64,000 nt of DNA, taken from Ceratotherium simum simum (taxonomy: Eukaryota > Chordata > Mammalia > Perissodactyla > Rhinocerotidae). Positions 4,788-45,970 of this stretch are shown here, piece by piece; position 1 is the first letter of the stretch, and every line of letters starts with the position of its first letter. Position numbers and translations under genes: made by a program. The stretch lies in the NCBI RefSeq assembly GCF_000283155.1, contig NW_004454207.1:4966399-5030398 (forward strand), given 5' to 3'. Below the pieces are notes generated by a model. That model was not told the origin of the DNA and made no database searches. It saw only the letters and a program-made list of their open reading frames with translations.

Positions 4788-4832
4788 CAATATACACATT
4801 TCCAGATATGGTATAAATGAAGCTTGTCCACC
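4788..4832 (-). CDS. PIR: PIR micro-exon, about residues 189-204
   Basis: This 45-bp exon starts with two bases that complete the glycine codon left by the exon at 17229-17313, then encodes WTSFIYTISGNVYI and the first base of Gly204. The acceptor is CCCTTTTCAG and the donor is TTG|GTAAGT, the strongest donor in the set. The length is divisible by three, so skipping it would keep the frame and delete a beta-strand pair of the C-terminal cupin. Residue 200 is Asn here, Asp in human as I recall. The codon order joins the preceding exon without a gap or overlap, which supports the assignment despite the small size. Confidence 0.94.
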
Positions 4833-5385
4833 CTGAAAAGGGACCAGTGACATTAAAAAGTTAGTGTCCATAATGCCACAATGAACAAAGATATAACAAC
4901 ATATTTAACAAATCTCTCTATATATGAAATAAAAATATATAAATTTATATGACAGATATAAAAGATAAATTTGGAGATGAAATCCTTTATTTTCTTTTAG
5001 ATATATATTTAAAAATTTAAGTTCTGTGAGCTGTTTAAAACATACTCACACTCCCACGTGCACACATGCACACACATACCCCTAAACCTAAATGACGTGC
5101 CCCCAAATGTTTTAGAGCCACCCAAGCAGACAGTGTACAATACACTTGGCTTATATGTCTACATGCCAACAGTTGTATTAACAAACTGTTTCTTCCAATT
5201 CCAACATCATGCTAATAACTGTGACACACCAGTCTGGCTTATCTTCAGTTCGTTGTGCCTCCAGGTACTTTTAAGTGTGAAGAGAATGCTAGAAAGATGC
5301 TTTTCTTTACTTAGTTGCATTTTATCCAGTGAACTCACTCCTTTTTATCTATCCTAAAACACAGCATCCGTTTCAGGGATGCAGG

Positions 5386-5546
5386 GATGCATAATCTTCG
5401 GGGTATAAATGGGCTTCGGATGGCCTATGCACTCCCTGGAATTGTCCACGCAATTTTTCAAGTGTGTACACTTTTCTGGGAAGAGGGTACATAGCAGACA
5501 CCAGATTCCTACTGAGACCCGTGGGGCCAAGAGCTCAGAACCATGG
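5386..5546. mobile_element. hAT-Tip100 (Arthur-like) element, ancient
   Basis: AATGGGCTTCGGATGGCCTA, TTTTCTGGGAAGAGGGTACATAG and CAGAACCATGG follow the order of an ancient Arthur-like non-autonomous hAT. The match is by remembered consensus and is diverged. Confidence 0.5.
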
Positions 5547-6469
5547 ACCACCTGCCATTTGCTCTTTCAGCACCGGCACTGGATTCTCATGGCTATTTAT
5601 GTGTTGCACCCGTGGCCCAGAAGAGATGCTGTGGTGCCACTGTGAGGCATGAACCTAGAAACAACAAGCTCAAAACGGAATTAGGACATCATCCCGTCTG
5701 CCTTCAGTGGAAAAGAGAGAAGATCTGGGAAGGGAATGCAGGGCAGAGTTCAAGGTGGAAAGGCAGGGCCCAGACTGGAGTCTATGTGACAGTCAACCTG
5801 GTAACAGAGTAAACAAAACAAAGGCAGGCGTGGAAGCATCATGGAGGACAAAATATACTCTAGAGATGTGGATGTGACGGCAGGTGGGTTGAAATGTGCA
5901 AGAGAGGTACAAAAGAAAAGGTATAACTGACAAAACTTAACATAAATTGAGTCCTGGTTAAGAAAATCCAAAGGAAGGCAAAACAAACAAAGACATCTGG
6001 GCGGATGCCAGACGATATTCTTTCACCCTCCTATTTCAGTTTTCCCTCTCTGCAATTTTGCTCGAATAAGTTTAAGGCCTCTGGAAGAAACGCTATTTGC
6101 TCATAGCTCACTCACACGTTTTTCTCCCTTATTGAGCCACTCGCTCAGTCTTCCAAGCTCAGTCTACCATCACGTAGGGAACATTTACCACTCACGTGCA
6201 TGCACTGTGGATGGAGACATGAAGATGAATAAGGCGCAGCCAGGTTTTCAAGTTGTGTAACTTCGGGGAGGGAGGTTTGTGGTAGATACTCAAAACACAT
6301 GCTAACAATTCACAGCCCAATTCCACATGTCTTATCCATCCAGATGGGCTGGCTCTACTAGAGCACTTCTTTCTCTCTTTCTAATGGGTGTGAAGCTTCC
6401 TGAGTCCTATTTAGCCTGATTTATAATAAAACTCTGCAACAAAACCCCTTTCTAAGCTGCTTTTTAAAA

Positions 6470-6890
6470 AAATCTCACCATTGAAAATAGTTTAAATTTC
6501 TTTTTCAAAGTGCAAATGTCCTTACTGGTTTTTTCTTATTATAAAACAGTAATATACGACCATTTAAAAGATATTTTAAGACTGTGAAAGTGTGCAATGT
6601 CACCTCAACTGAAAACCCCTGTGCAATCTTCATACTCACTCAGACATAAATATTGTTAGCAATTTGGTATTTGAGCTTTCCGTTTCTTCTTTCTTTTATG
6701 TGCCATATAGTATTTGCTTAAAGACTAAAACAAACTCAATGTTCTATTTTGGACACCTTTCCATATCAAAACACAGAGAAACAACTCATCCTTGGGAAAG
6801 ACTGCAAAGCATTCCATTGTAAGAATGTCGTAATTTATATCACCAATCCCGTCTTCATGGTTGCTAGGTATTAAAAAATTAATGGTTTCC
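6470..6890. mobile_element. Possible L1 segment
   Basis: GCATTCCATTGTAAGAATGT near the right end and the preceding layout resemble the L1 segment at 29880-30700, strongly diverged. Confidence 0.4.
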
Positions 6891-7045
6891 AAGTCTGACA
6901 GAACCTCAAAGCTCTCAACTGCTCAATTAGGTTTTCATTTGGGATTATTTTGATTGTTCTAATCTCATTTCTCTTCCGCCCCCTTTGCCTCACTCCTACT
7001 CACCCTCCAAGCAGAAAACTAGTCCACACATAATTGCCTACGTCT

Positions 7046-7236
7046 GTTTTTTTGTTTTTTTGCTGAGGAAGATTTGCCCTGAGCTAACATCTGTGCCACT
7101 CTTCTTCTATTTTGTATGTGGATCACTGACACAACATGGCCGCCAATGAGTGGTGTAGGTCCGTGCCCAGGAACCAAATCCGGGCTGCCAAAGCAGAGTG
7201 CGGGGAACTTAATCACTAGGCCACGGGGCCAGCCTC
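7046..7236 (-). mobile_element. ERE-type SINE, diverged, reverse orientation
   Basis: It starts with TGCTGAGGAAGATTTGCCCT, the reversed ERE tail, and ends with the reversed head (AATCACTAGGCCACGGGGCC). It carries more substitutions than the other copies, and the BamHI-like box reads CAAATCCGGG, so it is an older insertion of the ERE2/3 type. I could not fix the target-site duplication because both flanks are T-rich. Confidence 0.85.
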
Positions 7237-8123
7237 CTTTTTTTTATCTTTTTTACACGATCTAGAAGGATCAAACATTTGCTTAAAGGAATGGCGAGGT
7301 CAATTTACTCAGTGCATTCACCTATTCTTGTGCCATGAAAAAGTCTTCTCTTAGGATTTGGACGCCATCTTTACCAGTAATAACACAATTCATGTCACTG
7401 TTGGAAGGCACAAAGTGTTACAGGGAATGGAATAGGAACAGGGGGCAATTTCCTTTTTTCTTCTTTTTAACATGTTGTCCTCTGCACTTGCTTCTATTAA
7501 ACCTTGTTTAATTTCCATTAAGCATTGTTTCTTAAAGCTACAGCAAAACAAGAGCCAAATTGTGTGAATGCCTACTATATGTTTAAGAACCATCCCATTT
7601 TAGTAGAATTCCTTCTCTGCTAAGAGCAGAAGTGCATCAGCAAGGAGCTCTCTTGTGAGATTTTCAGGTGCTTCTCATCTTTCTAGCTTCCTCCACCTTT
7701 CCTCCCACTCTTATGTTCTGCCCCAGGAACTGATACCATCCTGGCATTTTTATTGCTCTGTCAGAGGTCACAGGTCCTATATTTTCCTTTCTTCTACAAA
7801 TGTGGTTTCCAAGCTACTGGCTCTTTGCAGCTGGGAAGCCCTTCCCTTCCCTGGGGCAATGACAAAGAAAATGAGTCGGGACGGAGGTCACATTTTGCCT
7901 CTGGTCCTGTAGGAAGGTTTAATCAGCAACACATTTAAGTCAGACATCCTTTAGTCAAACACAAAAAATGTAAAACTTGTCTTTTAAATATGTAAATCAT
8001 TTTCTGTGGCATTTGCTCTCATTTCCAGGGAGGTTCCCAATTCTTGCAAATGTTCCTAGTGAGAGCTTTTTTTGCCCTACATTTCCTGCCTTACCCCGGC
8101 TCACTTTTCTCCTGCCTCAGTCT

Positions 8124-8150
8124 TAAAGTTCATTATTTCAATGAACTTTA
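8124..8150. repeat. Perfect 11-bp hairpin
   Basis: TAAAGTTCATT and AATGAACTTTA flank the 5-nt loop ATTTC. Confidence 0.9.
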
Positions 8151-8463
8151 CAACTACTCCTCACACATGTATGTTTAAAGAAAGTAAAAAAATATGGTTT
8201 GGTGACACACCAAGTCCCTGACAAAGGTCAGCTCTGGGGAAGGAAGGAGAGAGGGGAATGGGGCCAAGGAGAGAATGAACCTCTCTCCAAACTCTGCATC
8301 ACACTGGTTGCCAGACCCCAAAGCAGTGCTGGTTCATAAGTGCCTTCCCCAGATGTCCCTGCGTTCAGCTTGGGCAGGCAGCCCCCTCACGTGGACCTCA
8401 TGCCTGGCCTCCCAGGACAGGAGGCAGACCCACCTGGTCCTCTCCTCTCCCTCCTCCCTCCAC

Positions 8464-9060
8464 AAAATTATTTTTTTAATTTTTATTTTGAAATAATTTC
8501 AGATACACAGAAAAGTTACAAAAATAGTACAGAGAATTGCCATACACCATTCACCCAGATTCTCCAAAAGCTAACATGTTGTCACATATGCTTTATCATT
8601 CTTCTCCCTAGAAATATATACCATTCTTTTTTTTCTGAAATATTTGAGAGTAAACTTGTAGACATGATACCCCTTTACCTTGAAATAATTTTCAGTATAT
8701 ATTTCCTAAACACAAGGATATTTTCCTATATAACCATAGTATATTATAAATATTATGAAATTGATAGAATATCAATGAAAAAATTATGACCATTAATACA
8801 ATACTATTATTTATGTACATATATTCAAATTGTGCCAGTTGTCCCAGTAATGCCCTTTATGGCAAAAAGAAAAAATTTCCAGGCCAGGATCTAATCTGGG
8901 TTCACATGCTGCATTCATTTGTCATGTCTAACCTCCTTTCATCTGAGGCAATTTCTCAGTCTTTTTCTTTCATTAAAAGTACAGACCAATTATTTTACAG
9001 AATGCCCCTCAGTTTGGGTTTGTCCGATGTCTCCTCATCATTAGACCAAATTGTTGGTTA
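8464..9060. mobile_element. L1M-type 3' UTR segment
   Basis: TTTGAAATAATTTCAGATAC, GAGAATTGCCATACACCATT, GTTGTCCCAGTAATGCCCTT and CCTCAGTTTGGGTTTGTCCG match a common old L1 3' UTR by memory. Orientation is not certain. Three small overlapping ORFs are by-products. Confidence 0.6.
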
Positions 9061-9274
9061 ATCCCTTTCCCTCTCAACTTTAGAGAAGAGACTATACTTA
9101 TTTTCAATACTTTAATTTTTTAAATTCATAACAGCACAAAGGATGAAATAACATATATGTTGCCATATTTATTTCATATCTCTCTTTTCTTTTACAGATG
9201 AAATCATATTGGTGAGAGAAATGTTCCCTAACTGGTTGCCTCCAAACCATTTTCTACACACAGTGCATGTGACC

Positions 9275-9420
9275 TTTCTAGAAGCCTCACTTAAAACCCT
9301 TCAATGGCTCCCTGGTCTCCCAGGACAAGCCTACACCCTTGACCCTAGCAGACAGACTCTTCTCAGTCTGGTCCTACACTTTTTCCCCAGCATCATCCCT
9401 TCTCTGCCTGTCCCACCTCC
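9275..9420 (+). mobile_element. L2 fragment
   Basis: CTTAAAACCCTTCAATGGCTCCC is the conserved L2 3'-region block; the following pyrimidine-rich sequence fits its continuation. Confidence 0.6.
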
Positions 9421-9624
9421 ATAGTGAATTCTAACCCAGCAACCCCTCTGGGGAAAGGAGAAAGGAGAAGGCAACAGCAAACCTTACAGGGACCTCTGGT
9501 GCCGTGGAAAACAAACCAACTAAGTAACAATAAAACAGCAATAAAACGAACACAGACAATTACAGGCAAAAAGTACAGGTTTAACAATCAGCAAATGACC
9601 CCTAGGGAGATCTAGGACTAGACT

Positions 9625-9817
9625 CCTAACCTCTTTGAGCCTGTTTCCTGGTTTGTAAAATAAGGAAATAATATGTACAACACACAACTGTTGTGAGGAT
9701 CAAGTGGCACTGTATATCTGTACATACATATATATGTACACGGACATAAGTGTGTGTTAAGTTTTTAACATTATCTACACAATGTCTGGTACTTAGTAGG
9801 CATTTAACAAATATCAG
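9625..9817 (+). mobile_element. MIR fragment
   Basis: CTAACCTCTTTGAGCCTGTTTCC and TGGTACTTAGTAGGCATTTAAC mark the core and the end. Confidence 0.75.
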
Positions 9818-11117
9818 TTCCCTTTCCTGCCCCTTCCTTCTCTTTCTACTCTCCTCCAACTTTATGCAGGTCAGGGTTGCAGTGGCTGCTCTCTACGCTT
9901 CTGATGAGCTGTGATCCAGGCCAGAGAAGGGTCATCACCACAGAGATGGCCCCATGTGCCCCAGTGCACCCCGCTCAACTCTAAGCCAACTGGTCTCCTC
10001 ATGGACTGCACTATGTACTGAGCAAAGCTCGGCAGGGTCTGTTTCCCAAAATGTAGAGAACGGATCCTTGCTGTCCTTGTCAAGAACCTTGTGGCACTTA
10101 AGATGCTGTCTGTGTCCCAGCAAACATTGCAGCATAGAATTGGTGACATAAGTGGGCTTTCTGATGGTACAGCTACTAACAGCTCACCGTAAGAGCTCTA
10201 AGCTTGCCAAGAACAGGCATTTAGCCCCCATTTTATAACCAAACATAAACAGCAAGAGAGAAGTGTCAACTTCGTAGCACTGCAATCTCAAAAAGAGATA
10301 GTTTATTATATGACCTTATGGGAATTTCATCAAAAGAAAACAAGAGAATGCCCATTTTACCAAATTTGGTGAGTGACATCAATAATAAAATGCCCAACAA
10401 CATTGCATAGAATGATATACACATAAAGACACTTGAGACAACTGGCTTTCCAGAGTAAAATATACTCAGAATGTGTTTCAGACATTCCAGAATGATCATA
10501 CTATGGTCTGTGTTTATAAGCCACGGGCATATAACATTAACAGCCATCTCTAAAGATCCTATATTTTAAACAAGAACAATTGCAACCTACAAGAAGACCT
10601 TCCCCAATGGTTTGGTCAACATTGATAATACTGAATATTCATTGGATCAGAGGCTAACAGAAAACTAAGAAATAAATGAAATTTAACATTTTGGATGAGA
10701 ATTGTATTAGCAATGTAAGCTCTTTGGAATGTAAGCTCTCAGAAGGCAGCCTTCTGTGTGCCAAGAATGGAGCCTAGCCCTCTGGAGGACAAACTCTGCT
10801 GATTATTTTCTCGCTAATAAAATAGCAAGAAAAAATGTATTAGAATCTCCTGGAAGCTTATCTTGCTCCTTAGAGACTAAGTCTATACTGAAGTTTTCCC
10901 ATCTACAAGACATTTAATGTGATCATTTTAACTAAAATAATACATTCTACCATTATCTCTTGGTTTTATTTGAACCACCTTTTATTTGAGACCTTTTCTC
11001 CTCTTCAAATATACAGTATTTACAATTGGTTTTTAATTGCTCAGAAAAATTCAGGAAATAATTCAAATATGTAGTTATAATCATAAAACTATATTTAGGG
11101 TTGTAAAATAGAAACTA

Positions 11118-11327
11118 TAGTCATGCATTGCTTAAAGACAGGGACACGTTCTGAGAACTGTGTCGTTAGACGATTTCATCATTGTGCAAACATCACAGAG
11201 TGTACTTACACAAACCTAGATGGTATGGCCTACTACACACCTAGGCTGTATGGTACTAATCTTATAAGAGCACTGTCATATATGTGGTCCATCATTGACC
11301 AAAATGTCGTTATGTGGTACACGACTA
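11118..11327 (+). mobile_element. Tigger-like MITE, copy 1 (210 bp)
   Basis: It is flanked by TA dinucleotides (11116-11117 and 11328-11329), with imperfect inverted termini TAGTCATGCATTG and reversed GTACACGACTA. The internal ACACAAACCTAGATGGTATG and the TATGGTACTAATCTTAT junction are shared with the copies at 30277 and 49571. TA target sites and CAGTCATG-like ends fit the Tc1/mariner Tigger group. It has no coding capacity. Confidence 0.85.
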
Positions 11328-11818
11328 TATTTTAGGCATTTGAACTTAGATTGAAGCCAAGTTTATAGATAATTAAGAACTAAAATATATAGAACTTTAA
11401 GGATTAAATAAAGGTTCAGAAAACAATAGAAACTTGAAATAAGTAGAGAGTGTCATAAATACCCCTAAGATTATTGTTGGGCATATTTAGACACCTGGCT
11501 CTTTTTAAGAGAAAAAGATTTTTAAGTAGTACCTGGAAAAGATGGAAAAAAATACATCCTTGTCAAAATTAAGATGTGTTTAAATTCTCAGAATAGTTTC
11601 TTACTTTACATTGACCATCACTTTAATCTGTTCTCTCTTAAAGATGACATATTAGAAAAACACAATACAATTTTCAAACTGGTGAGATTATTCATTTAAA
11701 AATTTTCAAAAATAGTCATTTTTTTAACCTATCTGCAAAATCTTGGGCTTCTTTTCCAATATGCCCAAGGCACTACCAGCAGTGTATTAGTCACTAAAGG
11801 TCCATTGTTTTGTCTGGA

Positions 11819-12078
11819 ACTTAGTGGTTAAGAGTCATGGTGAAAATCAGACTGCGTGGGTTAGAATCTCAGCCCCAATACTCACTAGCTGGTTGACCTT
11901 GAGTAAGTTACTTAACCTCCTTGTATCTCAGTTTCCTCAACTGAAAAACGGGATAATCACACTCCTTACCTCATGGACTTACAAGGATCACAGGTGTTAA
12001 TACAGGGGAATTTCTTAGAGCCGTTTCTGGCAAACAGTAGGCACTTAATAAATGTTAGCTATGACTATTACTATCACT
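11819..12078 (+). mobile_element. MIR SINE, nearly complete
   Basis: The tRNA-like start TAGTGGTTAAGAGTCATGG, the core TTGACCTTGAGTAAGTTACTTAACC and the end CTTAATAAATGTTAGCTAT are all present. Confidence 0.9.
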
Positions 12079-12179
12079 ATAGGATGATTCAATGAAGTGT
12101 GAGCTCCCAAAAATGTACATGATATTCTCCATCATGGATTTTTACCAATTTTTTTCTCTTTTTCAAAACCACATTTAAA

Positions 12180-12545
12180 GAAATGCAATTGTACCTCACC
12201 ACACATGAAAATCAATTCCAGGTGTACATAAATCAGTATGAAAGGCAAAACAACAAAGCATCTATAATAGAACATTCTCATGATCTTGGGTTAGGGAAAG
12301 ATTATTAAAGAAGCTACAGAGAGCACTAACCATTAAGGAACAGATTGATACATTTAAGGAGTTTTTATTTACTAAAATGTAGGAAAATATAATAGTATAG
12401 CAGAATGAAAAACAAGGAAAAAGGGAGAATATATTTGCAACACAAATAACTGACAATGACTAGTACAGAGAATACGTAAAGAGCTCCTACAAAGCAATAT
12501 GAAAAAGAAAGACAACCCACCCAAAGGAAAATGACATGAAGCTTC
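12180..12545 (+). mobile_element. L1 ORF2 3' part, decayed
   Basis: CATGATCTTGGGTTAGGGAA, CTAACCATTAAGGAACAGAT and ACGTAAAGAGCTCCTACAAA are conserved landmarks near the end of L1 ORF2. Stops and indels abound. Confidence 0.7.
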
Positions 12546-13011
12546 TCGCTAGATAATTTTATATTTCAAGCTCTGGTTCATGTTCACTACTGCTCTGAAG
12601 ACTTACTGATTAATGTCCATAACTGTTAGGAGTATATTCTAAATATGAGGGGAACTGTGATTGAATATTCTAATATACTACTGGTAAGCAGAAAGCTTTG
12701 CAAAAACTACCCACGAATTAAATCATATATTCTGTGTAGTGAACAGAACCAGCTTTTGCTCTCTCTATGAAAACACCTGAAAATCTAAAATTCCATATGA
12801 ATCATTCATGTTTGTGGCATTCTCCTTTAAAAAGTAGATAATGACTATGAAAAGACATTTAGGCAGGAACTCCAAGGAGAACTCACCACGTATTTCTCCA
12901 GGCTCACTCAAACAAAGAAAAAATCACAAGCAGGAGAAAAAAACCACTACTTCATTTTTGAGTCACTGATCATGTGGAAAAATGTGTGGTACTCTGAACC
13001 AAGATCATAAG

Positions 13012-13539
13012 CTTGGCAAGTTGACTCTAAGACTCCCTCTGACTTCTGGTATTCATGCCCTGTGTATCCCTTCTTCTCTGAGTGTGGGATGCACCTAGTG
13101 ACTTGGTTCTAACCAGTAGAATAAGGCAAAAGTGATGGGCTGTCACTTTTCAGATTAGGTTACACAGAGACTCTGGCTTCCATCTTGCTCATCCTCTTTT
13201 GCTCACTCACTTGCCAGCTCTGAAGAAGCCAGCGGCCATGTTGTGAGCTGCCCTATGGAAAGGCCCATGTGGCAATGAACTGACAGTGGACTCCAGGCAA
13301 CAACCCTTGAGAAACTGAATGCTGCCAATGACCACATGGGTGTGAGCTTGGAAATGCATCCTTCCCAGGGGAGCCCAGGGATGACTGCAGCCCCGGCTGA
13401 CACCTCAATTGCAGCCTTGCAAGAGTTCCTGAGCCAGAGGACACAGATAAACTGGGAGACACTGTAAGATAAAAAATGCTGTTTAAAGCCACTAAGTTTT
13501 GGGGTGATTGGTTATGCAGCAATATAAATAACTAATACA
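13012..13539 (+). mobile_element. Solo LTR, MLT1-like (MaLR)
   Basis: The 3' end AAGCCACTAAGTTTTGGGGT ... AACTAATACA is typical of MaLR LTRs. ATAAG occurs directly before (13007-13011) and after (13540-13544), consistent with a 5-bp target-site duplication, although the expected TG start is eroded. ORFs across it are spurious. Confidence 0.65.
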
Positions 13540-13639
13540 ATAAGATTTATTTAAACACATCCTAATGTGATTTACTGAGTAGCTACTGTATGCATGGGAT
13601 TAAAATCTACTTTTTAAAGAAGTGCTATAAACCATTTAT

Positions 13640-13680
13640 TTCTTTTTTTATCCAGCTTTATTGAGATATAATTGATGTGG
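13640..13680 (-). mobile_element. Tiny L1 3' tip
   Basis: CCAGCTTTATTGAGATATAA is the reversed terminal block of many mammalian L1s. It is severely truncated. Confidence 0.5.
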
Positions 13681-13749
13681 CTCCTTTCCTTTTTTTTCCC
13701 CTGGAACATAAATACAGAGGCAAAACTATATTGGCAATATTTAAGAGGG

Positions 13750-14253
13750 TGTATTAGTATCCTATTGCTGCTGTAACAAATTACCAGAAACTTGGTGGCT
13801 TAAAACACAAAAATTTACTATCTTACAGTTCTGGAGGGTAGAAGTCCAAAAATGAGTCTCAAGGGTCTAAAATCAAGATATCGGCAGGGTAGGGTTCCTT
13901 CTGGGGGCTCTAGGGGAGAATTAGTTTCCTTGAATTTTCCAGCTTCTAGAGGCTGCCCCTATTTCTTGGCTTGTGGTCATCTTGCATTCTCAAACCAGCA
14001 ATTACATCACTCTGACCTCTGCTTCTATTGTCACATCTCTTTCTCTTACTCTGCCTCCTCTCTCCCTCTTTCATTTATACAGCTCCTTATGATTATTTTG
14101 GGCCCACCTGGATTATTCAGGGTACTCTCTCCATCTCAAGATCCTTAATTTCATCACATTTGCAACCTCCCCTTTACCATGTAAGGTCACATATTCACAG
14201 GTTCTCGGGATTAGGGCATGGACATCTTTGCAAGGCCATTATTCTGCTAGCCA
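13750..14253 (-). mobile_element. Solo LTR, MLT1-like (MaLR), reverse orientation
   Basis: It starts TGTATTAGTATCCTATTGCT and continues GTGGCTTAAAACACAAAAAT and GTTCTGGAGGGTAGAAGTCC, the reversed 3' half of an MLT1-type LTR. The order CTCAAGATCCTTAATTTCAT then AAGGTCACATATTCACAGG supports near-full length. It lies 210 bp from the plus-oriented LTR at 13012-13539. Confidence 0.8.
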
Positions 14254-15578
14254 GAGAAGAGTAAGCTATATGTTCCCCAAAGAAATTTTGTTGATTGACA
14301 TACATATACTGTAAAGAAAAGTTAAAAGTTGAGGGAAGCAAAAAAAGCTTAACAAAATTAAATTTTTCCATACCATAACAATCCTTCATTTTTAACATTC
14401 CAGATCATGCTTTTAAACACCTAGTAGCAGAGATGCTGTGAAGGAAGATGGGAAAATAAACAGAGTGGCTGTTGAAGACCAAATTGGAATGCAGTCAGTC
14501 AGAAGTACAAAGGGGACGTGACGACCAGAAGGCACAAGTTTCTTGGAAAAGATTGATATTTTCCTAGAAATACAGATTTATGTTGTTCTCAATGAATGAT
14601 AACAAACAGTGTTATCTGTATATCAGTTTACAGCAAGGAAAATCAGGTTGCTTTGTAAGAGATGGCAAAAGTCACTGCAAAACAAAAACTACTTATTCTT
14701 ATTTCAGCCAAGAGCTAACATGAAAAACGTGTGGCCGATGTGAAAGGAATCTGGTACTGTCAGAGACTCGACAAATCGGATTCTTTATAAGTGATGCACT
14801 GTTCAGCTCAATTCCTGATATCAAGTGCCTCCCAAGTAATCACTGCATGAACCATCTGTTTTCTGCAAGGTTAGTACAACTCCACAGAAACGTGCCTTGC
14901 CCGAAGGAAACAGAGAGATGGTAAAAATCGATTCCAATACTATTTATGGGAAGGAATTCAGATAAAGCCTAGTCTGGTTCACAAGCCATGTTTCCAGTCT
15001 CCCTTAACTAGATGTCCCTTTGGGAAAGATGCATTTCCTGGTATCCGGGATGGGATGGTAGCAGTGTCTGCCTCTATTTCTATCCCATTACTTTGGTGGT
15101 GATACAATGAAGTCAACAGTCATTTAGTTAGATTGCAAAGCTTATGCCAAAAGCCAAACATAACCCAGACATCCATGTCAAATCCCTTTACCATGAGTAA
15201 CAAAACAATCAAAATGTTATAAACAAAACATGCCCAGGACCCAGCCAATAACCCACACATTTCAAGGAATATTTGATGCAGCAAAGCACTCAGATAAAAT
15301 GAATTTAGACAGTTCTTGGATTTTATAATGGAATTTGACCTGGAAAGGTAGTTTAAAAAAAATAGACAAAGAGTGACCTTGACTTGAATGGCTTGATGAT
15401 AAAATTTATACAGCATAATTTTACCAGCCAATATGACTGATGACAGGCAGCCAGAACTATCAAATCTGTAAATAATAAGTGCTATATAATATCTGAATTG
15501 TTTGTCTGGCACTGGACAGGGAAGCCTAAAACTTGGGATTTGCCACCTAATGCAATGCAAGCACGGATGAGTGAGTGA

Positions 15579-17228: not shown

Positions 17229-17313
17229 CTTTAGGAATAGGCTGGGAATGCTTTGCTCCTTGGTCCAATTTGAAGTCCAAATATAAGGTGGGTGTGCGAG
17301 TGTAAATCTTGGA
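17229..17313 (-). CDS. PIR: PIR coding exon, about residues 161-188
   Basis: This 85-bp exon encodes 28 codons plus the first base of a glycine codon. It begins SKIYTRTPTLYLDFKLDQG and ends QPIPK, spanning the linker into the C-terminal cupin domain. The acceptor is a strong pyrimidine tract ending in TTTTCAG and the donor is AAAG|GTATGA. It starts in phase 0, matching the preceding exon, and ends in phase 1, matching the next. Differences from human pirin as I remember it are V163I and P178Q. It is too short to appear as an ORF and was recognised by translating the minus strand between splice sites. Confidence 0.95.
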
Positions 17314-20486: not shown

Positions 20487-20526
20487 TATATATATATATA
20501 TACACACAAACGTACACACACACACA
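20487..20526. repeat. (TA)n-(CA)n compound microsatellite
   Basis: An alternating TA run passes into ACACACAAACGTACACACAC, a typical compound dinucleotide repeat. Confidence 0.9.
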
Positions 20527-29035: not shown

Positions 29036-29560
29036 AAAAGGGAACAAACATTTATTAAGTACCCTCTATGTTGCCAGGCACATTACATATCTTACAAACA
29101 ACTCAAAGACTATTCGTTACCATCCCCATTTGGCAGATAAGGAAATAAAGGCTCAAAAATAATTTTCCCGGGGGCCGGCCCCGTGGCTTAGCGGTTAAGT
29201 GTGCGTGTTCCACTACTGGCAGCCTGGGTTCGGATCCCGGGCGCGCACCGACGCACCGCTCATCCGGCCACGCTAAGGCGGCGTCCCGCATACAGCAACT
29301 AGAAGGACGTGCAACTATGACATACACCTATCTACCAGGGCTTTGGGGAGAAAAAGGAGGAGGATTGGCAATAGATGTTATCTCAGAGCCGGTCTTCCTC
29401 AGCAAAAAGAGGAGGATTGGCATGGATGTTAGCTCAGGGCTGATCTTCCTCACAAAAAATAATAATAATAATAATAATAATTTTCCCAAAGCCACAGAAG
29501 TATTAAACAACAGAGCTGAAATTCGGACCCAGGTCTGCTTGACTCCACAGTCCATGCTCT
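29036..29560 (-). mobile_element. MIR split by an ERE
   Basis: The left part runs from AACATTTATTAAGTACCCTC through GCAGATAAGGAAATAAAGGC. After the ERE it continues with AAAGCCACAGAAGTATTAAAC and CGGACCCAGGTCTGCTTGAC. The order is a single reversed MIR. Confidence 0.9.
29170..29475 (+). mobile_element. ERE SINE, full length, inserted in a MIR
   Basis: The head GGGGCCGGCCCCGTGGCTTA is followed by box B-like GGTTCGGATCCCGGGCGCGC, the ERE body, and a duplicated tail module (GGATTGGC...TGTTAGCTCAGGGCTGATC) ending in (AAT)n. The target-site duplication AATAATTTTCCC is at 29158-29169 and 29476-29487. The flanks are two halves of one minus-strand MIR. Confidence 0.95.
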
Positions 29561-29879: not shown

Positions 29880-30700
29880 CTCAATCATGTAATGAACATC
29901 CTTCCAATCAACCCTTTGTATGTTTATTTAGATAGATAGGTGTCCTTGAAAAATAAGTAGCATTATGTGCAAAACTGCTCTCTCATTCTAATTTATTCTA
30001 CATTATTTCCTGAGATCTAATAATATAGATATAAGTAAATATAGTCCATTGTTTCCAACTGCTACATTGTATTCCATCATATGTAATCACCATATTTTAC
30101 TTATCCATTCCCTAAGTGGTGAACACCTACATCATCTCTGACTCCTTTCTCCATGATGCTGAGATAACCACTGTCATATGTCTACTTGGTGAAGTCTTGC
30201 TGGAGTAAATATCCAAGAGCGGAATTGCTGGGGCATACTCTATATGCAGTGTTAGCTTCACTGAGTAACTTAAGTACAGTCATGTACCACATAATAACAT
30301 TTAGATCAACAACAAATCACATATACAACAGTGGTCCCATAAGGTTAGTACTATATAGCCCAGGTGTGTAGTAGGCTATACCATCTAGGTTTGTGTAAGT
30401 ACACTCTATGATGTTCGCACAATGATGAAATCGCTTAACAACACATTTCTCAGAATGTGTCCCCATCGTTAAGCTATGCATGACTGTAATGCCAGCTTGC
30501 TCTCCACAATGAATACAGTTATACTTTCCTGCCATGCATGAAGTTTCTATTTCTTCCCATCCTTGCCGGCACTTGACAATATTCAGCTTGCTAACTTTCG
30601 CAAACCTGAAAAGTGTCAAGTGGTACCATATTATTTGAATTCACATTTCTCTGTATATTGGTCAGAAGAACATCTCTTCATATTCTTATCAACCTTCAAT
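29880..30700. mobile_element. Ancient L1 segment, split by a MITE
   Basis: GCTACATTGTATTCCATCAT, AGAGCGGAATTGCTGGGGCA and, beyond the MITE, CTTCCCATCCTTGCCGGCAC are consecutive landmarks of an L1 3' region. Confidence 0.65.
30277..30486 (-). mobile_element. Tigger-like MITE, copy 2 (210 bp), in an L1
   Basis: It starts CAGTCATGTACC and ends GCATGACTG, flanked by TA at 30275-30276 and 30487-30488. It has exactly the length of copy 1 and is in reverse orientation. The sequence on both sides belongs to one ancient L1 segment. The ORF crossing its far end has no meaning. Confidence 0.88.
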
Positions 30701-35485: not shown

Positions 35486-37934
35486 ATAGAGAAATGGGAC
35501 ACATGAATTAAATGACAACTGTCAGTCCAAAATTCTCATGGGTTGTGAAGACAGACAGCTGTGTGGATGTAGGGTAGCCCAGACGGCTTCACCGAAGAGA
35601 GGGGACGTAGGTTGGACCTTGGTTAATAGTAGCAAGGGGACAGAGATGGTGAAATCCTCAACTGCACATTTCTACAGGACTTTGCACTTTACAAAATCCT
35701 CTTCCCCCAAATGCTCTGTCTCCTCCCTGTCCTGTGTCAGAGGGAGACCAGAAGGCTCTCTGCCTTACGCTGAGATTTCCTTTCCTCTCTCCCTACACCC
35801 ACCCATTAAAATACATCCATTTATGGTCTCAAAAGGGAAATTCAGCCAGAATTCATTTGGGTGATTGTAAATTTCACAGGTGGGACTTTTTTTTAGGATT
35901 CCGCATAGTATCTAATTAAACATGGACCATAAAAGAAAAATCAATGGAAATAAAAACTAGAGGAAAATGAAATTGTTATCAGAAAGAGACATGGGTCATT
36001 GTCTCATTAAAAATCTTAGATTCTTAAAATGATCAAATCATATTAGGTTTCCAGAAACTGCCTCATAGAGATCATGGCTATCCATTTTTTTAAATGCCCA
36101 TTTAATGTTTAATGTAACATTGAATATTACATCATTTTTCTTAGCTCTTTTCTTTTATATTTGTACCTATTTTTCTTACACTGAAAATCTTGATTCCTAA
36201 AAATATTAACAAATTTACTCATTTGTTTTATTTCACAATATACACAAAACTGTTTTAAAATTGTAATGCCAACACTAACAATAAAACAATGGAGTGAAGA
36301 TGAAAGTTTTTGTGCCATTCTTTTTGTCTTTAGAATGTATCCCACTAAAAATGTACAGTCAAAGAACTAGGTTTAAAAGTCCTTAAAATAAATGTTTTCT
36401 CTGTGTGGTTATGTTGCTGATACCTTTACACAAATTTTAAGTTCTTCATTTGTTTCCATTTGTTTTTAATTTTAAGATTTGTTTTTTTTTCTTTTTCTGG
36501 TTTAACTGGATGTTTTAAATATGTAAACATTTACAGCTTTCAAATTTCAAAATAAAAAGACATAATGGAGAGAAGTCTCAGGTCCATCCTTATCCTCCCC
36601 ACCCTCACCCCAAAGGGAACATTTTTTTTAAATATCCAGTTTTAAGTGCATCACAGAGCGCTCTGATTTATAAATAAAATAAATTAACAGACAGGCCTTT
36701 GGAAGGGACGATTCCTTCTGAGCACGTGTTGTTTGCCTCTGCTCGCTCTCCGGGACAGCTGGAGGCCATTACCTCAGGCTCCCTCTGTCAGAAACCCACT
36801 GTCCCACTTACAACCTCTGCCATGAGGAGAATATCCGCCATTCTTTTTTGAGCTAAACCCATGAACTCGCTGGAATACTTCAAAGGCAAAAAAAGAAAAA
36901 AAAAAATTATGTGCCTGTGTTACCTGTTTTCATGATTTAATAGTTTTTAAATGCTACTTTAAGAAGTTGTTCTTCTGAGCTTGGGAAGGAAAGAGAGCCT
37001 TCTGTGGATGGGAGTGGGGGGCCATCCAGCCTCCCCACATCACAAAGTGAACAGAAGCAAACTCAGAAAGGCAGGTGAGGGGAGGAAATGAGAATTTGGG
37101 GTCAACTGTAAAGTTGGCAAGATCCATTTAAAACGTGCCAGATACAATCAAAGAATTCAAATGTCCCCTGAAATAGAGAAATGGGTATAATGCAAAAATG
37201 TCCTAAGTTTACTGTCTAGTATTATGATTGCCAAAAACCCACTGCCATTTGGACATGCTATAAAAGTGTTTCCTGGAAAGCCACATAAACTATATATTTT
37301 TTAATCAAACTAAAGTAGAAGGGATACTGACAAAATTGTGTATTGGTGATAAAGTGTTTCAAATGACATTCTGCCCTTAGAGTTCCTTGGATGAAAACAA
37401 AAGCTGGAAAATGTGGTGGGTAGCTGTTGCTCTCTAGTTCTGGTATAGGAAATAGGGGGTGTGCACCAATGGCCTGCCACAGCCCAGAGACTCCAGCAGC
37501 TCTCCAAATCAGAGGTGATAATCGCAGGCTTGGTTATAAATCACGTGCCAACCCATGACCAACCCAGGTTGATCAGTGGGCAGGTTGCTTTTTGGCTGGG
37601 AGAGAATTGCCCAAGGGACACGGGGTCTTCCAATGCCTGCCGGAGCTAAACCAGGCGAGGAAGGGGACATACCCAGCAGGGACACATTGAAAGCTGCTAA
37701 TTAAATATTTCCTGATTGTCTTGTTATGTATCAGGCACTGTTTCAGGTCCTGGGGGCACAGTGGTAGCAAGATCTGAGCGAATTACATGGAATGCTTGGC
37801 AAACTCTTGGAGACTGAATTTTTATAATTTTGGTTATCATCCAATACATGAATATATATAGTCTGTCCATCAGAAGGAAGATTCTTTTCGTTATGTCTGT
37901 ACGCAAACACTGTACAAAGCTTTTGCAAAGAAGT

Positions 37935-38170
37935 GAAAGCAGCAACCACTTATAGAGCAACCACTTATAGAGGGCTTATCCCGCACCAGGTATTACTCTA
38001 AGTTCTTTACACATAGTAAGCAATTTCATACTTCCGATGACCCTCTGAGTCATGTAATTATCTCCATTTTACAGATGAGAACACTGAGGCCCAGCAGGCT
38101 TAAGTGACTTCTCTAAAGTTAGTCAGTGGTAGAGCTGGCCTTGAACCCAGGCAATCTGGCTCCGGATTGT
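37935..38170 (-). mobile_element. MIR with an internal 15-bp tandem duplication
   Basis: ATTTTACAGATGAGAACACTGAG and GGCCTTGAACCCAGGCAATC are reversed MIR landmarks. AGCAACCACTTATAG occurs twice in tandem at 37941-37955 and 37956-37970. Confidence 0.85.
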
Positions 38171-38604
38171 CTTTTTCTGACCCTAGTGGGGCTGAGGCCT
38201 CCTTAAGGTTTGCTTCTGACATTATGGAATTTAAAACAGCAGGAGGCAAGTACAGGCGTTTGTTGGAAAAGAAACATGTTCCAGAGAGAACTGGCAATAA
38301 ATATTACTGATTGGCTGCCTGATAAAGATGGAATGGGGTTTGGAGAATTTCATACTTTCATGAAATAAACATGTGATTTTGACCTTCCAGAAGTGAGAGA
38401 AACTATTCAAAGTATCCCATTTTTATCTTTTCCCCTTTTCAGCCTTCACTTTAGACCGTGCTGTCCTGGCAGAATCTTGCTCAAAATCAGCTGTGGCTTC
38501 CCAAGGGCTGAGACACACACAACCTGGGAAATGGGGACACATTTACCTTTGGGAACAGCAGAAGGACAGCTGTGTTGCTTGCCAAAGCTTATAATATCTT
38601 GCAC

Positions 38605-38700
38605 AAAAGCTCCTCACCTTTTTTGTGGACAGAGGAACTGAAATCCAGAGAGGTTACATAAGATTTGCCAAAAGCCCCAGAGCTGGACCTTAACATCTTC
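38605..38700 (-). mobile_element. MIR core fragment
   Basis: GAACTGAAATCCAGAGAGGTTAC and the following CCAGAGCTGGACC are the reversed MIR core. Confidence 0.55.
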
Positions 38701-38777
38701 TATAGGCGCCTAATCAAACTGTTCCTGGATGAGGAAACCTCCATGTCTGGGATCCTATGGTCATTACACATATTGCC

Positions 38778-38935
38778 AACAATGGTCCCCGGACCACAGC
38801 ATCGGCATCAACTGGGAGCCAGTTAGAAATGCAGACTCTCAGACCTTACCCAGACCCGCTGAATCAGAGTCTGCATTTTAACAAGACCCCCGGGTAATCC
38901 ATATGAATATTAAAGTTGGAGAAGCACTGGAATGG
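38778..38935 (+). mobile_element. MER20-like hAT element
   Basis: GGTCCCCGGACCACAGCATC, CAGTTAGAAATGCAGACTCT and the end AAGTTGGAGAAGCACTGG follow the MER20 pattern of a short non-autonomous hAT-Charlie transposon. The start is eroded. Confidence 0.75.
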
Positions 38936-39354
38936 TCACTAATCCCATTTTCTAAATATATCAGTTGCGGAGAGGCGAGTTGTTGACTCTATATTGGTTA
39001 TAAGCACATCAGTCTCTTGAAATGTATATTCTCATCCTCACCTTGTAATTTAACTTAAAAATATCTTACCAATGAAAAACCATCTTCAGTTGTTTTTATG
39101 GTACATCTAGACTTTTTAAGATCTAGTCATTCCTTGGTGAGCAGACAAGACTTCAGATGTACAAAACTATACTTCTTATGAGACCCAGAACAAAATGGCC
39201 AATAGTCCCCCCATCTTTACAATGACTCACGCTGGTGTCTTTTCTTCAGAGCAGGTTAATTACCTTTCCCAAATCCCAGCAAGCCCCTTTAGCAGAGACA
39301 GCAAACATAAATCTCAGCCCAGCTCCTGCCCAAGTTAACACAAGGTAATCAAAT

Positions 39355-39595
39355 AATAATAGGAATAGCAACTGCTTATGTGGTGCTCACAATGTGTCTG
39401 GCGCTGTTTTGATAGCTTAATGTATAAAACACTCGCTTAACTTTCATAGCAACCCTATTTTATGGATGAAGACACTGAAGCACAGAGAGGTTAAGTGGCT
39501 TGCCCAAGGCCACACAGCTAGTTCACGGCGGGGATTCTAATCCAGGCCTTCTGTCTCTAGAGTCCATGCTGGTAACCACAGCACCACATTGCCTC
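39355..39595 (-). mobile_element. MIR, nearly complete
   Basis: ATGGATGAAGACACTGAAGC, GGCTTGCCCAAGGCCACACA and GGATTCTAATCCAGGCCTTC are well preserved. Confidence 0.9.
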
Positions 39596-40459
39596 TCAAA
39601 ATTCTAATTCATGCTGCCCAAGGTGCCAAGAGCCCCTTATTAAAATTCTCTCATAATAAAGACTGATCATTTACTTAGGAGAACGTAATTCACTTCAGAG
39701 ATTTTACTCAACAAAGAGAAAAAGGAGAGGCCAGCAGCTACTAAGACATTATTTTACAAAGTTAAAACATTACCTATGGTCTCTAATTCTTGGTAGTGAT
39801 TGCAAGACCATGCGGTCTGCTGCTTGGAAGTGTTTTAAAATGTCCTGCCTATAACTGGAAGCAGCTCCAACATCAAAATTGCATTGTGTTTCTATAAATG
39901 AGAAGCAGTTGTGAACTCTAAGGATTCGTGATATTGCTGGCTTCGCTTATCTATCAAATCAGTGGTCTAATTTCTCTTTTTAGCTGCAAACAGTTGAACT
40001 CTTTTTCTAAATGAAATCTTAAGGACAATTCCAATACACATGACTGGGCAAAGTCTTGTGCTTTGGTTGAAGTGGAGAGGGGAAAATCTCTTGATCTCCA
40101 CCATCCACTTCAGTATGCCCTGAAGGCGTGTCCCTAGAACCCTATAGTCCTGGAAACACAGAATGATAAACACTAAAGGAAACAGAGTGAGCCGCCCCTC
40201 GTCTGCACTAATCCAGCTCTCCTTAGGCCTCCCTGCCTGATTCTACACACAGCAGTGTCCTTTGCCTTATACCAGGAAGGCCTCACAGGATCTGAATTCT
40301 CCTCTGTGGAGCTGAAGGGAAGAAAACTCTTGACATACAGTTGAAAAGGGCACTGATCAATGTTTGGCAAAACAGAAACGGGTCACAGAAACACGATGAA
40401 GGGTCACGTGTCCAACTGCAAAGTAAGCCGTAGGCCTGCCAGGGGTACAGACAGCAGTC

Positions 40460-40478
40460 AGATATATATATATATATG
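40460..40478. repeat. (TA)n microsatellite
   Basis: An uninterrupted TA run follows CAGTCAGA; likely length-variable. Confidence 0.85.
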
Positions 40479-41139
40479 CTTAATAGGGAGCAAATTTTGA
40501 TTGTTTTTTCCTTCAGTTACTTCTGTTTGCACTGGAAACACAAAGCAAAATAATGCATACACCTAGGCATGGTACAGGTAAAGAACTGTGGTTATAGAGC
40601 AGAAAATATAAAAACCAGTAAGTCCCAACCAATAATCACAACCAACCTGTTCACCATGACATGCATCCCACTGAATGGTTGGCTAGTAGCCACTGCCAAG
40701 CCATTATCGCTGTGGGTGCATATCAACAAAATTTAAATTTATATAAATTAGTGTTTAAACTAGTTTTAAGTGCTGGTTGCCCACAGGGAGAATGGCCAAG
40801 TGGTTCCCAATATGTTGATGCTCTCAACTCCAGGTGGCATGTGTGGAACTGGATGTCAGGGCCTCTCCCAGATCCCCTTGGATCCTCTTTAACCATTTCT
40901 GTGCCCCCTACCCCAAACTCAATGGCCATAAGTAACGACTTGGGGTAAGGGAGCATGAAAGCCCAGCTCCCTTGCCCAGGGTGGGTCGGGACAACTTGGA
41001 GGCAGACAGATCCTCCAGAGTCTCCATCCTCTTTGGGACTTTGCCTGAGATGGCACCCTTGCTTGGTTCCCTTCCATTCCCTGTCCTGGCTCCTTTTTCT
41101 GTGCCCCTAGGGGTGCTTCCTTTAAAATCACTTGCACAT

Positions 41140-41401
41140 AGGGGCCGGCCTGGTGGCACAAGCGGTTAAGTGCGTGCGCTCCGCTGCGGCGGCCCGGGGT
41201 TCGCCTGTTCGGATCCCGGGCGCGCACTGACGCACTGCTTGGCAAGCCATGCTGCGGTGGCGTCACATATAAAGTGGAGGAAGATGGGCACGGATGTTAG
41301 CCCAGGGCCAGCCTTCCTCAGGAAAAAAAAAAAAAAGAGGATTGGCAGATGTTAGCCCAGGGCTGATCTCCTCACAAAAAAAATAAATAAATAAAATAAA
41401 A
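41140..41401 (+). mobile_element. ERE SINE, ERE2-like, young
   Basis: The intact head GGGGCCGGCCTGGTGGCACA and the GGATCCCGGGCGCGCACTGA box are followed by the tail module and an A-rich (AAATA)n end. An exact 17-bp target-site duplication, TAAAATCACTTGCACAT, lies at 41123-41139 and 41402-41418. It lies about 770 bp from the PIR exon at 42169-42375, on the opposite strand. Confidence 0.95.
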
Positions 41402-42168
41402 TAAAATCACTTGCACATGAATTCTTATCTCGGGGTCTGCCTCTGGGAAACCCTACCCAAGAAACCATGCTACCCAGCTGGCTAGTACCTCGAATCGTCT
41501 CGCATGAGGAACTCTGCCTCCCCAGCAGCAGTTCTGGTGTGCAATTAACACAGTACTTGCCATATCCTTTTCCTACCACAAATCTGTCCATCATCTTTAG
41601 CTTAAATTGTTCTTACTTGATTAAACAGATGGGACTCTAAATATAAAGTCTCAGTTGAGAAGAATGTACAGGGCATGGAGTCTATGGGTTAAATAAATGT
41701 TCAAGTTAATTTTTTTAAAAAAACTTTCTATGATGTAGTTGTGTGGTTTCCACACTTACTAAGTTGGGCATAAATAATTTAAATAAATTTTCAGGCAGTG
41801 GAGTTGGTTTTGTTTTTTGTTTGTTTCTTAAATGTGGCAATCTGGCAGTACCAAGGAGCTATAAAATTGCACTATAAGCAAAAAGAAATAGGCTACATCT
41901 GTACACATATTAAGATATATCTGGAAAATTGCTTTTTGACTAGGTTTTTTATATGAGCGTGCTTTCTTGTAATTTTCCTAACTCTATGGGTTTGTATGTG
42001 GCAAAAAATTTCTGGGTTCCCTTAGGTTCCACTTATTCTGACACCTATGAAGCAAGTCCACCCCACGGGACATGAACTGTGATAAACCCAGTGAGAGTTG
42101 CTGACCCAGGTGGAACCAGCCTATGTCACTACATACCTCCATTTTCACAAACACATAACACTGCTTAC

Positions 42169-42375
42169 CTTTATTCCCAGGGCTTCTCCAGAAATGACAG
42201 CAACTGTTACACCATCCTTACTGGGTTTAGGGATTTCTCTACTTTTCAGTTCCTGGTACCGAGGCTCCACCATCTTCTCTGAGCTCCTCAAATTAACCCA
42301 CAGTTGGAGGCCATGGGCTGGCTCCTCTGAGCAAGGCATCTCGGCGTGCAGAATGCCCCGGCCCGCGGTCATCCA
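42169..42375 (-). CDS. PIR: PIR coding exon, about residues 92-160, carries two iron ligands
   Basis: This 207-bp exon encodes 69 codons, beginning WMTAGRGILHAEMPCSEEP and ending VAVISGEALGIK. It is the core of the N-terminal cupin domain. The HAE motif supplies His101 (codon at 42348-42346, CAC) and Glu103 (42342-42340, GAG), two of the four protein ligands of the iron centre in human pirin; both are intact. The acceptor is GTTTGCAG after a pyrimidine-rich tract, the donor is AAG|GTAAGC, and both borders are phase 0. Intron readthrough gives extra residues at both ends of the raw ORF, including a chance LQ upstream, so the exon is trimmed to the splice sites. Residues 130 and 137 are Arg here, against Gln and Glu in human as I recall it. 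Confidence 0.97.
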
Positions 42376-43264
42376 CTGCAAACACCAGACCAACAAGAAG
42401 GAAATGTAACTCCATCTATAACAAAAGTCTGCAGGTGGGACTATTATGACACGGTAACTAAGTTAGACACCTTACAAGTGCTGCTTTCAGAGTCCCTGGC
42501 GTCATGAGGAATAAGAAAACAATCATGACAACTGCTGAAGCCCTTCCCAGTTTCCCAAACGCTTCCCATGCTTCCTTATTTGAAATCAAAGTGTCAGATC
42601 TGAAATTCACACAAACAGAAGAATCCTCTCTTTGGTACCCCTGAGTCTTCAACGGGGCTCTGAGTTGGGGAGGTGCAGGCAGATAGTGTATCGGGGAGTG
42701 CTCTCGGGAGATACTCCTTCAGAAGTGAACAAAGCAGGATTGGGCAGGGGGGAGAAGCCAAGCAGCAATGCAGCTACAACAGAGGGCTTAGCCAATCCAG
42801 CGGGGAGCTCTAGCGATGGATGAAACTTCCGAATTGTCCCACATTGAGGTGAGGTGGCTGAGCTTTCCTACCCCCACATCAGGAAACCACTGACTGTAGG
42901 CCACCCCTCGGTCGGGAGCACAACCTTGAGAGAGGCAGTTCCTGCTGCAGAGGGCAGTGCCCAGAGTAGGATGCAGCTGAGAGCCATCAGCAGCTCAAGG
43001 ATACAGGCATGGGCCTAAAGACACACGCAGAGGCCCACAGTGTCCACTACACCACGGATGGCTGACTTGAGTCTCTGCTTGTTCAATTCTGGTAATGGAG
43101 CCCTCACTACCTAGAGAAACAGTTATTGCCTCCACTGCTGTGCAGATTCTTCAAGCATGTGTTTGTTTCTTTATTAAGAGTATATTAGGGGCCAGCCTCA
43201 GACACTAACCTTGAGATCGGAGGATGAAGAGATAGAACACAATAGATGGGATTCCTGCCTAAAT

Positions 43265-43650
43265 TAGCTTGGGTTCTCCCACAGAAGATCCTGAGACAAG
43301 GACTTAAGTGCAGGTAGTTTATTTGGAAAGTGATACAGAAAACATAAGTAGGGAAGAGTGAGCTAGGTAAGTGAGAAAGCCAAAAAGGAGTGTTAATCAG
43401 TGGGCTACATCTGTGGGCACCTGGGGCACAATTCCCCTGGGAACCACGCAGCTGTACTTGAGAATTGCTGCCTGGAGGGAATGGGAAGCTAGAGTGTTTA
43501 TCCACCAACTCTCATTCCTCACTGACAAGAGCTCCCCCAGGGGTGGTAAATCCAGGACACATCTGGGCACATCCGGGCTGTGGGCTGACAGTACTGGGCT
43601 GGAGAAAGCCCTCGGGCAGAGTAGCAGCACTTGAGGTGGGGAGCCATGCA
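43265..43650 (+). repeat. Unnamed dispersed repeat, copy B
   Basis: GTGCAGGTAGTTTATTTGG and the following GTGGGCACCTGGGGCACAAT blocks parallel copy A at 3518-4080, in the same order and orientation. Family unknown; the relationship is seen by eye only. Confidence 0.45.
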
Positions 43651-44086
43651 CACACAGGCAGACTGTGACCACCTGAACTCAGAGGTGGGTCAAAGGGCTA
43701 TGGGGCAGGCCATCAACAGCATCTTCCACATGGCCCCCCCTAGGGAGAAAAATCCTTAAACAATTACACAAATAATTATTGATCTTAGGACTGTGCTTGG
43801 CGCTGTGGAGAATGATAGGCTTCTGTGAGAGCAAATGAAATGCCTCCTTGTTCAAGGCAGCAACCTTCAGTCTGAGACCCAAACAAGGAGCAAGAATTGA
43901 CCAGGGGAAGGGGAAGAGATTCCATACAAAGGGAACAGCATGTGAAAAGACTGAGACAAGAATGAGCATTTCAAGGATCCAAAAGAAGGCCAGCACATAT
44001 TTGAGAGCTTTCTTTCTTTCTTTCACTGAATCTAAAGAGATTTCCCTCTATCTTCCACTTTATAAGGCTGATTAAATCTTCTGGTA

Positions 44087-44305
44087 TAGAGGTCTGCAAC
44101 CTACAGCCCAAGGGCCAAATCCCTCCTGCCACTTGATTTTGTACATAAAGTTTTACTGGCACACAGACACGCCCATTCATTGACATACTGTCTGGCTGCT
44201 TTCCTGCTGTAAAGGCAGAGTTGAGTAGTTGCAACAGACCATATGACCCACAAAGCCTAAAATATTCACTATCTGGCCATTACAGAAAACATTTGCTGAC
44301 CCCTG
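44087..44305 (-). mobile_element. hAT-like (Charlie group) element, same family as 2490-2772
   Basis: The termini TAGAGGTCTGCAACC and reversed TTTGCTGACCCCTG form imperfect inverted repeats. The body (AAAGTTTTACTGGCACACAG, GGCTGCTTTCCTGCTGTAAAG) aligns with the copy at 2490-2772. No convincing 8-bp duplication remains. Confidence 0.8.
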
Positions 44306-44631
44306 ATCTAATGCAATATAAAGTAAACCTAAACACCCTCCCACGCTGCACTTCTTCCACCTGACGATAGCTACTGGTCTTCCTCAGGCTTGTCTTCTTA
44401 TTTTTAAGCATTTTCCTGTTCTGTTAACAGTTCATCTCTCCATACTTTCACTCTGCCTTTCATACCTTGGTTTTCCCTTTTTAGATATCACCTAGCTTGG
44501 CAATACCTTTTTCTAAATGGCTCACCCATTGGATTTGGAGGGGGAGAACAGGGTTCTCTTTCCAGCCTCATCATTTACTACCTCTGAAGCCATGGACACC
44601 TTTTTTTGACATCTTTAAATCCCCATTCTCT

Positions 44632-44861
44632 GGATTGGTGGTTACCAGAGGGGAAGGGGGGAGGGAGGAGGCCAAAAGGGATGATTAGGCACATGTGTGT
44701 GGTGATGGATTGTAATTAGTATTTGGGTGGTGAACATGAGAACATGATGTAATCCATGCAGAAACAGAAGTATAATGATGTACACCTGAAATTTATACAA
44801 TGTTATAAACCAATGTTACCGCAACAAACAAACAAAAAAAGCAAGAAAATAAATAAATAAA
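44632..44861 (+). mobile_element. 5'-truncated young L1 (3' end only)
   Basis: About 230 bp of L1 3' UTR (GGATTGGTGGTTACCAGAGG to AATGTTACCGCAACAAAC) end in an (AAAT)n tail. An exact 16-bp duplication, TAAATCCCCATTCTCT, flanks it at 44616-44631 and 44862-44877. The clean duplication and low decay point to a comparatively recent L1 insertion inside the 3.5-kb PIR intron. Confidence 0.9.
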
Positions 44862-45429
44862 TAAATCCCCATTCTCTCACTTTTAGAATGACATGAAAAA
44901 AAATACTTACCTTAGAGAGATAATGCGTATGGAAACACCGAATAAACAGACAGACATGATGCAATCATTAGTCTAATCAAACGTGAAATTCTAATGGTAG
45001 AAGAGGTGTTGACCAGCACCTAACATGTACAACTGCAGAGGCAGCCCGATGGTGAGGGAATCACTACCGACTTGGTCAGGACACACCAGTCACCACATCT
45101 ACCTCTCTAGGCAGCCTCTACTTCATGTTCTTCTCCAGTGAAGGATACTATTGACTTTTGGCCACAACTCTTTGTTGGTTCGCTTTTCTGTCTTTTAAGT
45201 TTACGTTTATTGAAACACTATGATTCAAATATTTGCAGTTTTCATTCCACAAAATATGTAAATGATCCCAGAAAGTATCTGATATAGAGCTCAGATTTAC
45301 AAAATCAGCAAAGATGACCCAAGCATTTCCTGGGGATTTTAATTGTAACACGACTCAGATGAGACTAGGATGGTGGTAGGGTTTGGCTCATTGTCTAAAG
45401 TGACAACACATACCCCTACAAATCAGTTG

Positions 45430-45830
45430 GAAGATAACTAGTAAATTGTCTCAAATGCAGTAAAAAGATGAGGACTGAAACTGGTGCAATGAATTTGGCA
45501 ATTGGGACATCATGAGTGACCATTACATGAACAGTTTCAGTAAAGGTTTGGGGGTTGCTGAGGGGCCAACACTGATTTCAGTGAGTGGAGGATGAAATGG
45601 AAGATAAGGAAGTTGAGACAGTCACTCTTGATTACTCTTTTAAGAAATGTAAGAAGAAGACTAGCTGGGAGCTAAAAAGTGATTGAGGGGGTCAAGGAAA
45701 GTGTGAGAGAGGAATATAAGAGAGCTGTGCAGGTTTCCAGGCTGAGTGGAAGGATCCACAGAAAGGGAGAGGTCAAGGATATAATAGAGGGAGGGAGGCA
45801 AGCATGAATGTGCTGGAAGTGGGTGAGATA
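45430..45830 (-). mobile_element. L2 remnant (reverse-transcriptase part) next to a PIR exon
   Basis: AGATGAGGACTGAAACTGG and the CATCATGAGTGACC-type block follow the reversed L2 reverse-transcriptase region. It ends about 60 bp from the PIR exon at 45887-45970. Recognition is by remembered consensus. Confidence 0.5.
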
Positions 45831-45886
45831 AGCACGCACACCCAAAGACTATTAAACCATCAGCAATTCCTTGTCCTTGGCCATAC

Positions 45887-45970
45887 CTGCAGGTCTCCTG
45901 GGTCCATCTGACCAACGTGCCCACAGAAATCTTCATGGGCCATGCTGCCCCCTTCCAGGAGGTAAGATAC
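45887..45970 (-). CDS. PIR: PIR coding exon, about residues 64-91
   Basis: This 84-bp exon encodes 28 codons, beginning VSYLLEGGSMAHEDFCG and ending QMDPGDLQ. It is the part of the N-terminal cupin barrel just after the first metal-ligand pair. The acceptor is a pyrimidine-rich tract ending in CAAAG and the donor is CAG|GTATGG, both on the minus strand, and both borders are phase 0. Compared with human pirin as I remember it, residues 82, 84 and 86 differ (T to V, K to Q, N to D), all in a short surface loop, while the core SYLLEGGSMAHEDFCG is unchanged. The open frame and conserved core argue against a pseudogene. A 187-codon ORF overlaps this exon in another frame and is spurious. Confidence 0.95.

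Follow-up and report, generated by a model that had tools for sequence, protein, structure and literature searches.

We assign four short coding exons on the minus strand of a 64,000-nucleotide stretch of white rhinoceros DNA to exons 3 to 6 of the nine coding exons of PIR, in what is, from sequence comparison, almost certainly an intact gene and the only intact copy found in one search of the genome. The whole stretch that was analyzed, referred to here as the window, corresponds to positions 4966399-5030398 of contig C52 (C52:4966399-5030398) in an assembly of 2.45 Gb and 339 contigs. The preliminary description of this DNA had placed four PIR exons on the minus strand, and all four of its coordinate pairs proved exact, with AG just before and GT just after each exon (4/4). 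In window coordinates and in coding order, these exons are as follows:

45887..45970, minus strand, PIR coding exon 3 of 9: 84 bp, phase 0/0, residues 64-91, AG/GT borders, tblastn 4.4e-13
42169..42375, minus strand, PIR coding exon 4 of 9: 207 bp, phase 0/0, residues 92-160, AG/GT borders, tblastn 4.7e-41, genome match 1.6e-38 (best in genome)
17229..17313, minus strand, PIR coding exon 5 of 9: 85 bp, phase 0/1, residues 161-188, AG/GT borders, genome match 5.7e-10
4788..4832, minus strand, PIR coding exon 6 of 9: 45 bp, phase 1/1, residues 189-203, AG/GT borders, tblastn 2.7e-5

For exon 5, the tblastn value of 7.7e-14 belongs to a longer gapped match that contains the exon, while exon 6, the single exon that had been described as only 45 bp long, gives by itself a genome match of only 2.75. 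Joined in order, exons 3 to 6 comprise 421 nt with 0 stops and encode 140 residues in a single frame, and the phases listed above agree at every junction, as had been claimed. It had further been proposed that ORF length would reveal none of the four. This also held, as the in-frame stop-to-stop segments containing exons 3, 4, 5, and 6 have lengths of 66, 105, 66, and 26 codons, which place them 196th, 34th, 202nd, and 1578th among those of the window; a nuance is the ATG ORF of the 207-bp exon, which has 75 codons and ranks 36th of 1784. Exon 3 is overlaid by a 187-amino-acid ORF in a different frame, and the acceptor of exon 4 has a mediocre pyrimidine tract (0.59).

The 140 joined residues align without a gap to residues 64-203 of PDB entry 1j1l, which we take to be human pirin, with an E value of 1.8e-89 and 300 bits (phmmer). 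Over this span, 132 of 140 residues are equal to the human sequence. Each of the 8 that differ is shared at its column with 3 or more of the 120 highest-ranking of 7,982 pirins above threshold, a comparison set clustered at 90% identity (NCBI/UniRef) in which the named sequences come from vertebrates and some are nameless. When human pirin was compared to the window by tblastn, the four exons took the top four places (37.0 to 143 bits), the next place having an E value of 0.59; shuffled pirin (n=100, same window) reached a maximum of 29.3 bits. The preliminary description had named better alignment to a different gene as evidence that would count against PIR. We found instead that the top PDB matches of the joined exons are seven distinct sequences, all named Pirin, and that both Pfam pirin domains lie above their cut-offs in the full gene model: Pirin (PF02678) with 104.4 bits (66.5 bits for the window part; cut-off, 26.1) and Pirin_C (PF05726) with 117 bits (cut-off, 27). 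The window part alone scores 26.6 for PF05726, just under the cut-off, because this domain runs on outside the window.

An open join could also arise as a chance combination of AG..GT intervals, and when intervals of the same four lengths were drawn at random and joined in order 20,000 times, 19 of the joins were likewise unbroken. Unbroken phase by itself is therefore suggestive, moderate evidence (about one in a thousand) and weaker than had been implied. Only the top three of the 19 unbroken random joins, however, scored appreciably against pirin (140-146 bits by blastp, versus 17.7 bits for the next and the 300 bits given above, by phmmer, for the true join); from their scores, we infer that these three had drawn the true 207-bp exon. 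Similarity to pirin rules out a chance join, the probability of which we consider essentially nil, and it is this similarity, rather than phase agreement alone, that settles the identity of the exons.

The remaining five coding exons were located by searching the whole genome with human pirin, and all occur, in order, on contig C52 and the minus strand, <17 kb from the window. Their borders were placed by eye, as follows:

C52:5038894-5038989, minus strand, PIR coding exon 1 of 9: 96 bp
C52:5031214-5031306, minus strand, PIR coding exon 2 of 9: 93 bp, residues 33-63
C52:4962660-4962742, minus strand, PIR coding exon 7 of 9: 83 bp
C52:4955862-4955928, minus strand, PIR coding exon 8 of 9: 67 bp
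C52:4950278-4950393, minus strand, PIR coding exon 9 of 9: 116 bp including the stop

The near edge of exon 2 falls at window coordinate 64816, just beyond the right edge, which is why this exon could not be seen in the preliminary description. Within the window, residues 1-63 and 204-290 left no sign: weak scattered matches were all that word comparisons produced, whether with 16-residue words sharing 8 or more identities or with 8-residue words sharing 6 or more. The eight introns measure, in order, 7,587, 18,845, 3,511, 24,855, 12,396, 8,443, 6,731, and 5,468 bp, the third to fifth of which (3,511, 24,855, and 12,396 bp) lie within the window, and all eight have GT-AG ends (8/8). Spliced together, the nine exons form 876 nt in a single open frame with one terminal stop, encoding 291 amino acids, and the coding part of PIR extends over 88.7 kb. 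The earlier identification of the locus as PIR is supported. In a scan of the flank by kilobase, C52:5040000-5040999, 1 kb upstream of the PIR start codon, has a GC content of 0.59 and a CpG ratio of 0.73, and this kilobase is likely the PIR promoter island; two other flank kilobases, with GC contents of 0.45 and 0.39, pass by CpG ratio only.

At E values up to 10, the genome search returned 10 matches among 11 scored candidates (the best of a first-pass scan): one from each of the nine PIR exons and a tenth from a decayed copy. This last match bears on the possibility that the parts in the window come from a processed or duplicated PIR pseudogene, since it places a degenerate pirin sequence at C35:467560-468051, with four stops and 31% protein identity, that crosses the exon borders with no intron. 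When the spliced PIR coding sequence was compared at the DNA level with this copy (around 467563-468300), the two longest matches were 71% and 75% identical, and some of the shorter ones were in the opposite orientation. We read the C35 copy as an old processed pseudogene. It sits, however, on a different contig from the window exons, which are themselves kilobases apart, have canonical splice sites and no stop, and share 132 of their 140 residues with human pirin. The window exons also carry on into the other five, and the complete nine-exon frame refutes a pseudogene for the window, making such an origin extremely improbable. A processed copy had been anticipated as an objection in the preliminary description; the kilobase introns and the five further exons in order, set against a lone intronless copy that is decayed and on another contig, answer that objection in favor of an intact PIR gene.

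The exon borders were also compared to insertions and deletions in pirins of other species. Counting internal insertions and deletions that span 12 or more residues, the best 120 of 7,982 pirins contain 49, a number to be read with the knowledge that clustering at 90% identity over-represents unusual isoforms. Scored against five borders (63/64, 91/92, 160/161, 188/189, and 203/204), 70 of the 74 indel edges between residues 60 and 206 fall within one residue of a border, compared to 7.6 expected if the edges were uniform; the four edges off the borders are from P0023, P0042 (two), and P0048. Exact losses of a segment in these best 120 sequences involve residues 64-91 in 9 cases, 33-63 in 3, 92-160 in 1, and 189-203, the segment encoded by the 45-bp exon, in 16, among them sequences of lizard, tortoise, platypus, marsupials, ruminants, and rodents. 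Pirin isoforms X1-X3 and similar thus gain or lose segments at the same borders as the window exons. Such edges support the borders, although many are annotation predictions from related species and hence are not independent events.

Intronic sequence was examined by means of 15 isoform-specific inserts, 10 of which have a match (E values up to 0.05) in the expected intron, on the minus strand; two of these are identical and two nearly so, leaving 8 that are distinct or nearly so. Three insert matches (E values of 0.01-0.046) fall in the wrong place, and five of the 15 inserts are without a match in the expected place, two of these five belonging outside the window. The matches suggest that the intron DNA is also orthologous to the PIR introns of other species. 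Stops occur within the parts of the window matched by the inserts of P0008, P0009, and P0077. One match, at 9559-9645, is similar to a segment present in orangutan and marmoset isoforms (tblastn, 1.2e-8 and 9.8e-10) and, extended to AG/GT, delimits a candidate exon:

9558..9647, minus strand, candidate alternative exon within the exon 5-exon 6 intron: open over 90 bp, phase 1/1, with flanking AG and GT

If included, this segment would add 30 residues in frame between exons 5 and 6. It may resemble an antisense MIR element. Exon 6 is phase symmetric, so that the reading frame would be kept if it were skipped. The exons may thus be right while the main transcript differs, for example, with the 45-bp exon usually skipped or an extra intronic exon included, which would refine rather than exclude the intact PIR gene. 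The 16 losses of residues 189-203 and the open, AG/GT-flanked homologue of the primate-type insert are consistent with such a transcript, but residues 189-203 are kept in all seven (7/7) distinct PDB sequences named Pirin, and isoforms are over-represented in the comparison set for the reason given above; we consider a different main transcript very unlikely. Skipping of the 45-bp exon might be an old regulated pirin isoform common to vertebrates, and the 90-bp segment may also be used here as an exon shared with primates, a reading that we regard as unlikely; such skipping would shorten the beginning of the C-terminal cupin half by 15 residues. In the literature searched, no paper combined the PIR gene, exons, and intron, and none among the matches listed dealt with pirin splicing.

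The rest of the window was surveyed for other features. No RNA families (at Rfam's own thresholds) or tRNAs were found in the window, and when all 84 of its stop-to-stop segments with 85 or more codons were scanned against Pfam at E values up to 0.01, one matched Pirin, one matched DUF7773 (0.0015), and the rest gave no match. Ere-type short interspersed elements (SINEs) are present at 29349-29459, 41207-41363, and 50447-50622, with a tail unit repeated at a spacing of about 50 bp. A 17-base word, which we take to be the Ere SINE tail motif, occurs with up to 3 mismatches at seven places in the window (0.16 expected), and the tail repeat shows a spacing of 51-52 bp in two of the three regions examined; the motif was not met as text in the literature searched. 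These SINEs make Perissodactyla the likely order of origin, and to that level they support the equine setting of the preliminary description. Two dispersed repeat pairs were also observed, 996-1171 with 53448-53623 (90% identical) and 30337-30488 with 49571-49722 (84% identical).

For a PIR orthologue, BMX and ACE2 would be expected as conserved neighbors, on the X chromosome. Compared to human pirin, the full rhinoceros product is identical at 275 of 290 positions, differing by 15 substitutions and one extra C-terminal glycine. The window exons encode the last portion of the iron-binding N-terminal cupin half, followed by the linker and the beginning of the C-terminal cupin half. According to PMC7915911, pirin is a member of the cupin superfamily whose N-terminal domain binds one iron, and PMC11304471 gives the ligands as His56, His58, His101, and Glu103. 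All four are kept as in human pirin, His101 and Glu103 in the 207-bp exon and His56 and His58 in exon 2, just beyond the window edge. The cellular role of pirin is debated, with quercetinase activity confirmed and p65 binding not found in a 2024 preprint (PMC11642861); the window sequence has no bearing on that debate. As an intact orthologue of the already well-known PIR, the gene is ordinary. The identity of the locus is fixed, and the preliminary description correctly recognized exons down to 45 bp in raw sequence over 41 kb. In the white rhinoceros, PIR would be transcribed and spliced as modeled here, and its product would be an iron-dependent pirin like the human one.
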